A DNA stretch of 64,000 nt, from contig NZ_CP142675.1 in the NCBI RefSeq assembly GCF_036365825.1, positions 558,001 through 622,000 of the forward strand, written 5' to 3'. Under the pieces are notes generated by a model that was given only the letters and a program-made list of their open reading frames with translations, was not told where the DNA came from and searched no databases. Within the stretch, counting starts at the first letter, position 1; each line of letters opens with the position of its first letter. This stretch comes from Qipengyuania sp. HL-TH1. GTDB lineage: Bacteria > Pseudomonadota > Alphaproteobacteria > Sphingomonadales > Sphingomonadaceae. This document shows, one piece after another, positions 14,101 through 43,897 of the stretch. The translations under genes were made by a program, and so were the position numbers.

Positions 14101-14697
14101 ATGGCATCGCAAGAGATCGAAACCCTCGCCGCCGCACTGGCGCGCCTGCCCGGGCTCGGACCGCGCAGCGCCCGGCGCGCGGTGCTGTGGCTGGTCAAGC
14201 GCCGCGAAAGCGCGCTGCCCGCACTGCTCGAAGCGCTCGCCACGGTGGGCGAAGCGCTGGTCGAATGCGACACCTGCGGCAATGTCGACACCACCAACCC
14301 GTGCGGGATCTGCGCCGATCCGCGGCGCGATCTGAAATCGCTCTGCGTGGTCGAGGATGTCGCCGACCTGTGGGCGCTCGACCGCGCGAAGCTGTTCACC
14401 GGGAAGTACCACGTGCTCGGCGGCAAGCTGTCCGCGCTCGACGGCGTGCGGCCCGAAGACCTCAATATCGCGCAATTGCTGGCGCGCGTGGAGGCGGGCG
14501 GGGTGGACGAAGTGGTGCTGGCGATGAACGCCACGCTCGAAGGGCAGACGACCGCGCATTACCTCGCCGAACGGCTCGAGGAGCATCCCGTGCGCATCAC
14601 GCAGCTCGCCCACGGCCTGCCGGTCGGCGGCGAACTCGACTATCTCGACGAAGGCACGCTTGCACAGGCGCTACGCGCGCGGCGGCCGCTGGGGTAG
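14101..14697 (+). CDS. recR: Recombination protein RecR
   Basis: RecR works with RecO (and RecF) to load RecA on gapped DNA. The 198-residue product has the N-terminal helix-hairpin-helix ([20 protein letters not shown]), the four-cysteine zinc finger [16 protein letters not shown] near residue 57, and a Toprim domain starting [19 protein letters not shown] 14101 gives [18 protein letters not shown]; upstream codons belong to the fmt start region on the other strand. A 146-bp hairpin repeat begins nine bases after its stop. Confidence 0.96.
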
Positions 14698-14706
14698 GTT
14701 TTTGAT

Positions 14707-14852
14707 GCGTGCGGGAAGCGCCTCCGCGCTTCCCTTGCGGCTGTGCCATCCCACGCCCCCTCCCGGCCACCCACGGCCCGGTATTCTATGGGGAGGCGGG
14801 AGGGGGCGTGGGATGGTACAGCAAGAGCCGGACGGAAGTCCGGCGCGCACGC
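14707..14852. repeat. 146-bp nested-hairpin repeat, copy 1
   Basis: The ends are GCGTGCG (14707-14713) and CGCACGC (14846-14852). Left hairpin: stem GGGAAGCGC, loop CTCC. Central hairpin: 14740-14822, about 34-bp arms with a few mismatches, loop CGGCCCGGTATTCTA. Right hairpin: stem GCCGGAC, loop GGAA. It begins nine bases after the recR stop, so it may act as a terminator or 3'-end stabiliser. Confidence 0.85.
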
Positions 14853-14897
14853 AACGAACAATTGAAGAATCCGCATGGCGCGACTATCTGGCAACCC

Positions 14898-15482: not shown

Positions 15483-15570
15483 CGTCATCCCCGCGCAGGC
15501 GGGGATCCAGCTGAGTTGGGTTTCTTTCGCGAAGTTATCTGGGGCCCTGCCTGCGCAGGGGCGACGCATG
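15483..15570. repeat. Paired inverted REP-like repeat, copy B
   Basis: The left unit CGTCATCCCCGCGCAGGCGG and the right unit GGGCCCTGCCTGCGCAGGGG face each other across about 35 bp, between def and rmuC. The same layout is seen at 13040 and 43127, with compensating changes in each hairpin. Confidence 0.8.
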
Positions 15571-37437: not shown

Positions 37438-39738
37438 ATGGCCGCTAACGACACCACTCTCGACAGTGAAAAAGACCCGTTCGACGCGATCGTCGACGCC
37501 CCGTTCGATTCGGCGCTGTCCGAGCGCTATCTCGTCTATGCGCTGAGCACGATTACCGCGCGCTCGCTGCCCGACCTGCGTGACGGGCTCAAGCCGGTCC
37601 ATCGCCGGCTGCTGTGGACCATGCGGCAGCTCAAGCTCGACCCTTCCAGCGGCTTCAAGAAATCGGCGCGCGTGGTCGGCGAGGTGATCGGCAAGTACCA
37701 CCCGCATGGCGACACCGCGGCCTATGACGCGATGGTCCGCCTCGCGCAGGATTTCTCGCTGCGGTATCCGCTGGTCGAGGGGCAGGGCAATTTCGGCAAT
37801 ATCGACGGCGATAACGCGGCTGCCTACCGCTATACCGAGGCGCGCCTGACGAAGACCGCGATGCGCCTGATGGAAGGCCTCGACGCGGGCACGGTCGATT
37901 TCATCCCGACCTACAATAACGAGGAAGAAGAGCCGGAGATCATGCCCGGCCTGTTCCCCAATTTGCTGGCCAATGGCGCAAGCGGCATCGCGGTGGGCAT
38001 GGCGACCAATATCCCGAGCCACAATGTCGCCGAGATCGTCGATGCCACGCTCGAGGTGATCGACAATCCGCATGTCGAACACGCGCGGTTGATGGAACTG
38101 TTCAAGGGCCCCGATTTCGCCACCGGCGGGATCGTTGCCGAAAGCGCCGAGACGGTCGCCGCCGCTTACGAGACCGGGCGCGGGTCGTTTCGCGTGCGTG
38201 GCAGCTTCCACGCTGCCGAAGCCGAGAAGGCGGAGGACCGCGAGGCGGGGATCGAGCGGCTTGGCGGCGGGCAGTGGCAGCTGGTCATCAGCGAAATCCC
38301 CTACCAGGTCGCCAAGGGCAAGCTGATCGAGCAGATCGCCGCCGCGATCGGCGACCGCAAGCTGCCGATCCTCGAGGATGTGCGCGATGAAAGCGACGAG
38401 CAGATCCGCATCGTGCTGGTCCCGCGCAGCCGCAATGTCGATCCCGACCTGCTCAAGGAAAGCCTCTACAAGCTGACCGATATGGAAACGCGTTTCGGGC
38501 TCAATCTCAACGTGCTCGACGCCAGCCGCACGCCGATGGTGATGGGGCTCAAGGAGCTGCTCAACCACTGGATCGCCAGCCAGATCGATATCCTCCAACG
38601 GCGCAGCCAGCACCGGCTCGACCAGATCGCGCGGCGGCTGGAGCTGGTCGAAGGCTATATCATCGCCTTCCTCAACCTCGACCGGGTGATCGAGATCATC
38701 CGCACCGAGGACGATCCCAAAACGGTGATGATGGAGGAGTTCAAGCTGACCGACCGGCAGGTCGAGGCGATCCTCAACATGCGGCTGCGGTCCCTGCGCA
38801 AGCTGGAAGAGATGCAGCTGCGCGGCGAGAAGGACGATCTGCTCAAGGAGCAGGACGAGCTCGAGAAGCTGCTCGGTTCGCCCGCTCGCCAGCGTACGCG
38901 TCTGAAACGCGAGCTGGGGGCGCTGCGCAAGGAATACGGCCCCGACACCGCGCTTGGTCGCCGCCGCACCGCGATCGAGGAAGCGGCGCCCGCGGTGGAA
39001 TTCAGCATGGATGCGATGATCGAGAAGGAGCCGGTGACGGTGATCCTGTCGCAAAAGGGCTGGGTCCGCGGGGCCAAGGGGCATCTGCCGCTCGACCAGG
39101 AATTCAAATACAAGGAAGGCGACGGGCCGGCCTTCGTCTTCCACGCGCAGACGACCGACAAGCTGCTGCTGGCGACCGACAAGGGCCGGTTCTTCACGCT
39201 GGGCGCGGACAAGCTGCCCGGCGCGCGGGGCTTTGGCGAACCGGTGCGCAACACGCTCGATATCGACGCCAGCGCGCAGATCATGACGGTGATCGTGCAC
39301 AAGCCGGGCCAGCGGCTGCTGCTCGCCGCCGATACCGGCAAGGGCTTTGGCGCGACCACCGACGATCTGCTCGCCGAAACGCGCAAGGGGCGCCAGGTGG
39401 TCAATCTCAAGGACGGGGCGAAGCTGGTCGTCGCGCGCGCGATCGCCGAGGGGCACGATCATGTCGCTGTGGTTGGTGACAATCGCAAGCTGGTGGTCTT
39501 CAACCTCGAGGAACTGCCCGAACTCGCGCGCGGGCAGGGGGTGACGCTGCAACGCTATCGTGACGGCGGGCTGGCCGATGCGACCACCTTCCGTCTCGAG
39601 GACGGCCTGTCATGGCAGATGGGCGGCAAGGGCGACCGCACCCGCACCGAGGGCGAGATGTGGCAATGGAAAGTCGCCCGCGGCGGCGCCGGCCGCCTCC
39701 CGCCGCAGGGCTTCCCGCGGGATAACAAGTTTGGTTGA
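37438..39738 (+). CDS. parC: DNA topoisomerase IV subunit A
   Basis: ParC is the cutting and rejoining subunit of topoisomerase IV, which separates daughter chromosomes. The 766-residue product has [17 protein letters not shown] near 44, [18 protein letters not shown] near 75 (quinolone region, Thr 93 and Asp 97 at the sensitive positions) and the DNA-linking Tyr 132 in [12 protein letters not shown] coiled gate and a shortened beta-pinwheel C-terminal region follow. ParE is not in this window. The lack of a GyrA box and the short C-terminus separate it from GyrA. Confidence 0.95.
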
Positions 39739-39747
39739 GGTTTGTCG

Positions 39748-39893
39748 GGTGCGGTCAGGACATCCGTCCTGACCTTGCTGTTCCGTCCCACGCCCCCTCC
39801 CGGCCACCCACGGCACGGTATTCTATGGGTGGCCGGGAGGGGGCGTGGGATGGAACAGCCAGCAAGCTGGCGGCGGATGCCGCCAGCGCACGC
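39748..39893. repeat. 146-bp nested-hairpin repeat, copy 2
   Basis: The left hairpin has stem GGTCAGGAC and loop ATCC (39753-39774). The central hairpin has 34-bp arms (39777-39810 and 39826-39859) with a single G-T mismatch and loop CGGCACGGTATTCTA. The right hairpin has stem GCTGGCGGC and loop GGAT (39866-39887). Ends are GGGTGCG and CGCACGC. It begins nine bases after the parC stop, the same offset as copy 1 after recR. Confidence 0.88.
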
Positions 39894-39907
39894 AGAAGAG
39901 ACGCACC

Positions 39908-43126: not shown

Positions 43127-43216
43127 CGCCCCTGCGCAGGCAGGGGCCTGGATGACTCCACGTCAGGCTCGAGAGGCGAGGCTATCTGGATCCCTGCCTG
43201 CGCAGGGATGACGACG
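43127..43216. repeat. Paired inverted REP-like repeat, copy C
   Basis: Left unit CGTCGCCCCTGCGCAGGCAG and right unit CTGCCTGCGCAGGGATGACG face each other across about 40 bp. Like copies A and B, hairpin bases differ between copies while pairing is kept. Confidence 0.8.
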
Positions 43217-43228
43217 CGGTAATGGCGT

Positions 43229-43374
43229 CTGTTCGCGGCTGACTGCGTCAGTCGCTGCGCCCTGTTCGCTCCCGCTCCCCCTCCCGGCCACCCACGGCAC
43301 GGTACTCTATTGGGTGGCCGGGAGGGGGAGCGGGACGGAACAGCAAGGTCAGGACGGATGTCCTGACCGCACGC
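43229..43374. repeat. 146-bp nested-hairpin repeat, copy 3
   Basis: Left hairpin GCGGCTGAC/GTCAGTCGC with loop TGC (43235-43255) and one mismatch. Central arms 43262-43294 and 43311-43343 with loop CGGCACGGTACTCTAT. Right hairpin stem GGTCAGGAC, loop GGAT (43347-43368), then CGCACGC to 43374. The right stem is identical to the left stem of copy 2. The right end lies one base from the stop of the GNAT gene. Confidence 0.85.
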
Positions 43375-43375
43375 A

Positions 43376-43897
43376 TTAGGAATTCCACGGCCCCAACATG
43401 CCCTCGGCAGGCAGCACCGCCGGATTGCCCGTGCGCGCCAGCAGCCGGTCCCGGTCGTAGGGGCCGGGGCAGTGCCAGCCGCCCGTATGATCGGCCAGGA
43501 AGCCCCAGCGGTCGTAATAGTCGGGATCGCCGATCATCACTTGCGGCAGCGGGGCTGCGCCCTCTTCGAAGCCTGCGTCGATGGCGCCGAGGCTGGCGGC
43601 CATCAGCGCCTTGCCGAAGCCTTCGCCCTGTCGCCCGGGCATGACCGCGACGGGGCCGACCATGATCATCGGGTGTGCGCGGCCCTTGGGGTCAGTCAGC
43701 GCCACCGGCCACAGCTGGATCGTCCCGGCGAGGTAATCCTCGTCGTCGAGCGCAGCGAAACTCGCGCCTTCGAGCCAGTCCATCCCCGCGCGGATGCGAT
43801 AGGCGGTGCGTGCATGCCGCTCCTCGCCGAACGCCGCGTCGAGCAATTGCTCGACCAGCGCCGGATCGATTGCGGAAAGGGGGACGAGGCTAGCCAT
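43376..43897 (-). CDS. GNAT-family N-acetyltransferase
   Basis: The 173-residue product has the GNAT fold: SFAALDDEDYLAGTIQLWPV (strands 1-3), then MIMVGPVAVMPGRQGEGFGK near 82, whose RxGxG-type loop binds acetyl-CoA, and GDPDYYDRWGFLADHTGGWH at the C-terminus. This subgroup resembles YhbS-type acetyltransferases with a wide range of amine or tRNA substrates; target unknown. The stop is next to hairpin repeat copy 3. Confidence 0.88.
   Translation of the reverse strand: MASLVPLSAIDPALVEQLLDAAFGEERHARTAYRIRAGMDWLEGASFAALDDEDYLAGTIQLWPVALTDPKGRAHPMIMVGPVAVMPGRQGEGFGKALMAASLGAIDAGFEEGAAPLPQVMIGDPDYYDRWGFLADHTGGWHCPGPYDRDRLLARTGNPAVLPAEGMLGPWNS

Follow-up and report, generated by a model that had tools for sequence, protein, structure and literature searches.

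A three-hairpin intergenic repeat of REPIN/BIME-like architecture at gene 3' ends in Sphingomonadales

We show here that a repeat of about 150-170 bases, folding into three hairpins, is dispersed in Erythrobacter-type bacteria. We consider it, with a probability of roughly 0.55, to be a REPIN/BIME-like element of the Sphingomonadales in which new copies replace old ones at gene-end addresses, thereby giving hairpins at mRNA 3' ends. What we observe of this reading is that copies are dispersed, that they abut gene 3' ends, that stems, arms and loop orientation change between orthologous sites although the folds persist, and that copies are nested at a recurrent junction. Architecture and placement are of the known REPIN/BIME kind; what sets this repeat apart is that it has neither a GTAG nor a CGTC tag and that most genomes of the genus have no Y1 transposase gene. 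A single address can be compared across close species, in which the cassette has changed, the loop has flipped, a copy has been nested or a single hairpin is left. Direct tests of REP persistence, of the cause of heterodimers, and of whether architecture or sequence is what cells and mobilising enzymes read are therefore within reach.

In the window, the whole 64,000-nucleotide stretch of the Qipengyuania sp. HL-TH1 genome analysed here, an earlier reading of the bare letters (the sequence-only reading) had described three 146-bp copies of one plan. This plan holds for the copies at 14707-14852 and 39748-39893, but the copy at 43229-43374 follows it in its right half and has another module on the left, so that its equal length of 146 is a coincidence. 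In our description, the element has two inverted small hairpins with a 9-bp stem and the loop GGAT/ATCC, flanking a palindrome with arms of about 34 bp and a 15-nt loop. The GCGTGCG-like left end claimed in the same reading is present in copy 1 (GCGTGCG) but reads GGTGCGG in copy 2, and the central loop, described as conserved, varies in sequence (CGGCCCGGTATTCTA, CGGCACGGTATTCTA, CGGCACGGTACTCTAT). Its view that the repeat lacks coding capacity stands: no coding role was found, the open reading frames overlapping the copies come from a mechanical list, and the frame at copy 1 is a long version of def. Comparison with relatives, in which tails such as AGTCTTTGTTGGGTGC and GCACCCAACAAAGACT recur, suggests that the element reaches beyond the earlier borders by about 10 bp on either side.

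Copy 1 with its 16-nt tails lies at 14697..14860 (+) between the tandem genes recR and def. It consists of a left hairpin, GGGAAGCGC-CTCC-GCGCTTCCC (14713-14734), a palindrome (14740-14822) with its loop at 14774-14788 and arms mismatched beside the loop, and a right hairpin (14827-14844). Copy 2 with tails (39737..39903, +) comes immediately behind a gene for a gyrase/topoisomerase IV A subunit, here termed parC, beginning right past its stop codon; the neighbouring gene is convergent. Its left hairpin is GGTCAGGAC-ATCC-GTCCTGACC (39753-39774) and its right hairpin GCTGGCGGC-GGAT-GCCGCCAGC (39866-39887); the central palindrome between them (39777..39859, no strand assigned) has 34-bp arms and the loop CGGCACGGTATTCTA at 39811-39825. 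In copy 3, palindrome, right hairpin and tail occupy 43261..43384 (+), with the palindrome at 43261-43344, its loop at 43295-43310 and the right hairpin, GGTCAGGAC-GGAT-GTCCTGACC, at 43347-43368. The left side of copy 3 is the module GGCGTCTGTTCGCGGCTGACTGCGTCAGTCGCTGCGCC, a different repeat type (43224..43261, +; GGCGTCTGTTCGC-hairpin-GCTGCGCC) that abuts the arm of the palindrome. Modules of this type also stand left of the palindrome at three loci of other genomes (L066, L054, L050), and in two relatives they meet a solo small hairpin without a palindrome. Def and the gyrase/topoisomerase IV family as well as recR were assigned by separate family searches, and genes were called with a home-made caller (70 genes, 87% of the window). 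R1, a covariance model of the small hairpin built from 32 perfect-stem units, matched at 14701-14740 and 14819-14858 in copy 1, at 39741-39780 and 39860-39899 in copy 2, and at 43341-43380 in copy 3.

As a second dispersed module on the same palindrome arm, the left side of copy 3 can be written as GGCGTCT[AG]T[TC]CGC-hairpin-GCGCC-like (43224-43261; L066, L054, L050). A further module, CCGAGCCGTCAGGCGAGC, was seen beside other copies.

Folding of the window copies showed that the inverted doublet can form one structure. The predicted RNA fold of copy 1 (14707-14852) had a z score of -10.97 and that of 43229-43374 one of -10.45, and the DNA fold of 39740-39900 scored -13.84; in each case 0/200 shuffles were as good. 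The plan was then quantified in 112 palindromes from 15 genomes, a sample drawn from 100 places in 11 genomes chosen among the strongest matches listed in the genus search, 18 regions of three further genomes (G023, G043, G007) and the HL-TH1 genome. The palindrome finder required at least 17 net paired positions, and 13/123 sources yielded none. The central loop is 15 nt long in 106/112 copies. Arms of 33-34 bp are present in 67 copies, and 85 copies fall within the wider range of 31-38 bp. Both small hairpins were called in 74/112 copies, one in 35 and none in 3, a few copies being clipped by contig ends. With a caller that demanded at least seven of nine pairs, perfect 9-bp stems were found in 100/183 units, eight pairs in 66 and seven in 17, and the loop is GGAT in 141/183; among 187 anchored units, perfect stems again number 100. 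The majority of stems can be assigned to about a dozen classes, a class being defined as lying within one mismatch of one of 12 types that were set after inspection of the data. Among the 32 units of the R1 model, which were picked for perfect stems and whose 100% pairing is due to this selection, seven of the nine pairs had changed on both sides. Beside the small hairpins lie tails of about 16 nt with the consensus GCAC(C/G)CAACAAA (position counts, 183 units).

The palindrome arms also co-vary. Within a copy they differ at a mean of 1.9/33 positions, against 6.1 when right arms were shuffled (minimum of 2000 shuffles, 5.3) and likewise 1.9 against 6.7 with one copy per site, although this agreement over 33 positions is inflated by the pairing-based finder, in which degenerate copies are under-represented; copy 1 of the window and, in G043, the counterpart of copy 3 (L150) escaped it. 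At the outer 13 positions, which are least affected by copy calling, 1.4 differences compare with 3.7 after shuffling (minimum of 2000 shuffles, 3.1). Arms of orthologous copies with both flanks at least 90% identical differ at 4.9/33 positions (68 pairs), so that an arm tracks its partner arm more closely than its ortholog. In 20/112 copies the outer 13 positions hold three or more mismatches, some of which are short indels.

The two small hairpins of a copy are unlike. The same stem class on both sides occurred in 0/74 copies, compared with 8.8 expected when all hairpins were shuffled and 7.4 when only right sides were (p 0.0002), and in 0/56 distinct site-and-pair combinations against 6.4 (p 0.0004), p-values that are overstated at the copy and pair level since copies at one site are related and a site requires only one alignable flank. 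With one copy per site the count was 0/23 against 2.8 expected (p 0.042), which is a weak test. Partners matched at 3.7/9 stem positions, compared with 4.8 after shuffling. Mirror-image control copies were scored as homodimers in 67/74 cases, so the caller would have detected most homodimers. Heterodimers prevail in many REP families, and protection against hairpin-cleaving enzymes has been suggested as a reason (PMC3733652). In the present repeat, pairing of unlike hairpins probably keeps the whole element from becoming a single very long inverted repeat.

The sequence-only reading had left room for a repeat confined to its three sites, which it is not. A 159-base query found seven places in the 3.33-Mb HL-TH1 genome, namely recR/def, parC, 43229 of the window, 3022657, 2282210, 1548245 and 1594938; at 2282210 the central palindrome stands alone, and at 1594938 a right half carrying a third hairpin comes after the full copy. 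R1 found 13 units in this genome. Searches of related genomes revealed the repeat in many species. Matches (E up to 1e-5) were present in 38/60 genomes of the genus, including HL-TH1, and R1 matches under stricter filters in 31/60, with 0 to 50 units each (110 candidates scored per genome). Across the order, at least 62/296 genomes and at least 22/79 genera had matches, five of these genomes belonging to other families; because two candidates were scored per genome, these counts are a lower bound. Of the eight loci inspected from this search, three from another genus (L305, L306, L311) have every part of the plan, and their small hairpins are unlike. When named genomes were scanned, 29 stretches emerged, 26 from Qipengyuania/Erythrobacter and 3 from other Sphingomonadales MAGs. 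Among plasmids one partial match was detected, in Sphingopyxis (42% of the query), and a phage search gave no match.

Copies are placed at the ends of genes. A gene 3' end is faced by 97/112 copies, and in 68/97 the nearest 3' end lies within -10..+9 bp of the element border, defined as 84 bp from the centre; by site, the median distance lies within -12..+10 in 21/27. Of 30 sites, 17 are tandem, 9 convergent and 4 divergent (26/30 tandem or convergent), compared with 27, 3 and 12 of the 42 window spacers of at least 50 bp. Placement at gene 3' ends with rarity between divergent genes, a property reported for REPs (PMC3733652), is thus shared with CGTC REPs. Some copies reside inside operons, at rpoA/rplQ and hisH/hisA in HL-TH1 and at rpsL/rpsG in relatives, which argues against complete termination. 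These genes were named by Pfam on pieces from L018, L017 and L156 (G007), hisH as a glutamine amidotransferase domain adjoining hisA, and the other rpsL/rpsG loci by motif. With respect to the upstream gene, the loop is forward in 64 and reverse in 33 of 97 copies, those at the same site not being independent. The rpsL/rpsG copy of the str operon was seen in several species of three genera (L045, L047, L052, L053, L156, L308, L312).

Flank similarity sorted the 112 copies into 30 sites, of which 23 hold at least two copies from different genomes, and at these sites the content turns over. Pairs with both flanks aligned were binned by the lower flank identity, and pairs are not independent. At 90-95% identity the loop was inverted in 20/63 pairs and the stem class was the same in 29/99 comparisons; at 80-90% the figures were 40/93 and 31/123, and below 80% they were 40/72 and 28/101. 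The bin of at least 95% comprises only 5 pairs, with one inversion and the same class in 4/7 hairpins. Stem-class identity between different sites, the chance level, is 11-13%, and the 29/99 seen at orthologous sites exceeds it, so part of the content is inherited. At the parC site, both stems, the arms and the loop orientation differ between the window and G043, G007 has kept a single small hairpin, and G023, of the same species as HL-TH1, carries a copy nearly the same as that of the window. Two relatives lack the palindrome at the 43229 site and have a different right stem. Chimeric hairpins, with the 5' strand of one class and the 3' strand of another, number 8/187; four are clear and the others are possibly indels. 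As judged from these alignments, the hairpins at one address are exchanged for others from one species to the next while the folds persist.

Some copies are nested. In 16/183 units, at 10/30 sites, the tail runs into a half palindrome of another copy. For eight of these 16 (six sites) the distance between stem and border is exactly 16 nt and the junction sequence is T/CCGGG, and the nested borders of L222 and L250 read T/CCG at the same point. The mirror junction, CCGG/(element start), was seen seven times in the loci examined, partly at the same places. One site, identified in each genome by a 601-base flank probe at 98% identity, shows several states: halves of an outer copy flank an inner copy on both sides in G049 and G045, which represent two species, G051 has the outer half on one side, G046 has a simple shortened copy and G024 unrelated sequence. 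Solo forms and deleted or half forms also occur in relatives. The nested pattern would be explained if a copy had entered a resident palindrome and the resident halves had been lost afterwards, an order of events that we infer. No target duplication was apparent, a direct repeat of four bases being found in 0/74 copies when borders were set at 14-18 nt, and no clean empty site was seen at seven HL-TH1 sites compared with one to three relatives or at two further sites in five genomes, so that insertion itself is unseen. The term "mobile or regulatory non-coding element" used in the sequence-only reading is in agreement with these results, in that dispersal, nested junctions and solo or half forms speak for mobility. 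A clean empty site, which it had proposed to look for, was absent at the places compared; on the regulatory side, the position at gene 3' ends points indirectly to a role in transcripts.

A GANTC (CcrM) site is present in 43/183 tails, in 36 of them, from several genomes, at one fixed position (e.g., L144, L254). The nested junction GACT/C explains only part of these sites.

We propose the following course for replacement at gene-end addresses. New copies would preferentially land in the central palindrome of a resident copy by a single-strand or repair-based route. The repeated halves would then recombine or slip, deleting the old copy and leaving the address occupied with its content replaced. 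The element would be co-transcribed with the upstream gene, and its hairpins would remain at the 3' end of the mRNA or, within operons, between the genes. By analogy with the REP literature, they might slow 3' exonucleases and separate the expression of neighbours without full termination. More tentatively, and with some doubt, we propose that the repeat is self-targeting: new copies may enter resident palindromes next to CCGG and displace them, resulting in ever-changing hairpin cassettes at fixed gene-end addresses, with partners always unlike. The enzyme that moves them would not be a Y1 transposase and, at least in two genomes rich in copies, would not be a small GIY-YIG nuclease either.

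Both enzyme types were tried as drivers and rejected. The Y1 transposase domain PF01797 gave no match in the HL-TH1 genome in a search that was positive in control genomes such as E. coli. It was found in 5/60 genomes of the genus and lacking in 55/60, and R1 matches in the five numbered 47 (G049), 0, 1, 0 and 0, so that copy number is not associated with its presence. In the high-copy genomes G009 and G024 (33 and 35 R1 matches), the single GIY-YIG match of each lies in a long open frame (662 and 735 aa, respectively) that, from its size, we take to be UvrC, so that small GIY-YIG genes are probably absent from both. Inspection by eye of the R1 table (44 sources, 580,605 bases) revealed no apparent longer element with these ends and no facing R1 matches enclosing a gene, except separate neighbouring copies. 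At L162 of G023, orthologous to 1594938, a GIY-YIG match and TGGATTGC...CGTCGC-type repeats stand where HL-TH1 has the palindromic element; it was this match that had pointed to GIY-YIG nucleases as candidates.

BIMEs of enterobacteria are mosaics of inverted palindromic units and short modules between genes. The present repeat is put together in a similar way, but it has no GTAG-type REP and a different unit order. BIMEs are mentioned in PMC2817692. With REPINs, as described in PMC3116915, the repeat shares an inverted small-hairpin doublet with a spacer, extragenic location, a non-autonomous nature and the capacity to form a single fold in single-stranded DNA or mRNA. Unlike in REPINs, the doublet partners differ in 74/74 copies, the spacer is a palindrome with 34-bp arms that also occurs independently, by itself at 2282210 or combined with other modules, and most hosts lack a Y1 gene. 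In common with the CGTC REPs of alphaproteobacteria (PMC3733652), it has stems of 8-9 bp, loops of 4-5 nt, head-to-head dimers, a prevalence of heterodimers and structured spacers, each as in some of those families, no dedicated transposase and a location near gene 3' ends. In contrast to them, it has no CGTC tag, the loop GGAT/ATCC and other tails. Neither a consensus GTAG tag at the hairpin foot (183 units) nor, in the element sequences, the CGTC tag with CCA tail as defined in PMC3733652 was found. The earlier remark that this is no nameable REP unit therefore holds for the defining tags and the transposase of described REP families, while architecture and placement resemble REP doublets, BIMEs and REPINs. 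In the window, Rfam yielded only one tRNA at gathering score. Around copy 2, a further 28 matches fell below this threshold; most were to microRNA models and lay on the long hairpin, and they were judged to be due to chance. No account of this repeat emerged from the open-access literature searched, and three sequence words of loop and arm did not occur in those papers. A table in PMC12306157 gives 3,055 REPs for Erythrobacter cryptus by its own broad criteria, and some copies may be contained, unnamed, in REP lists of this type. In alphaproteobacteria, REPs for which no transposase is known pose an unsolved problem, as PMC3733652 states for CGTC REPs.

Several points weigh against copy replacement at gene-end addresses: no clean empty site, target duplication or mobilising gene was found in the genomes and loci searched, 15/112 copies do not face a gene 3' end and 4/30 sites are divergent, and the exchange of stems could be explained by plain gene conversion without mobility. 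One alternative is an ancient, host-selected 3'-UTR RNA element, a stabiliser or attenuator that is now immobile, its stems shuffled by gene conversion and its folds kept by selection. We regard this as unlikely, though as a serious contender. In its favour, the same sites are occupied in several species (23/30 with at least two genomes), rpsL/rpsG copies occur in three genera, and compensatory stem changes and the gene 3'-end position would follow from it. However, R1 counts range from 0 to 50 within one genus, unlike an essential element, solo and deleted forms are tolerated, and the recurrent T/CCGG nested junctions suggest an insertion-like process. Also improbable, it seems, is a standard REPIN family mobilised by a RAYT (Y1 HUH transposase) whose gene was lately lost from the genomes examined. 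The inverted doublet, structured spacer, extragenic location, missing target duplication and 3'-end placement as reported for REPs (PMC3733652) would fit, but the GTAG tag is missing, PF01797 is absent from the HL-TH1 genome and rare in the genus, and among the five genomes that have it only G049 is R1-rich.

A non-autonomous DDE-type MITE with terminal inverted repeats like AGTCTTTGTTGGGTGCG would account for the imperfectly inverted ends and for the end point that recurs. We consider this reading very improbable given the lack of a 4-base direct repeat at the borders of all 74 copies and, in the R1 table inspected by eye, of gene-enclosing facing matches. Least credible is a bidirectional transcription terminator. 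It would account for very stable hairpins at gene 3' ends, and the sole terminator-like match of the region (0.2 expected) is the first of the small hairpins in copy 2, behind which lies the weakly T-rich TTGCTGTTCC. Against it, no U-run follows the long hairpin, operon-internal copies have ribosomal genes downstream (rplQ, rpsG), and behind parC a separate GC-rich hairpin follows the element and is also present in relatives without the element.

Separate from the three-hairpin repeat, the window contains CGTC-tagged REP-like repeats of the pattern CGTCATCCC[CT]GCGCAGGC[AG]GGGATCC, similar to a kind already described in alphaproteobacteria. No match to this CGTC-type pattern arose in 100 shuffles, and two were found in the window at up to three mismatches, at 15483-15508 (+) and 43188-43213 (-).
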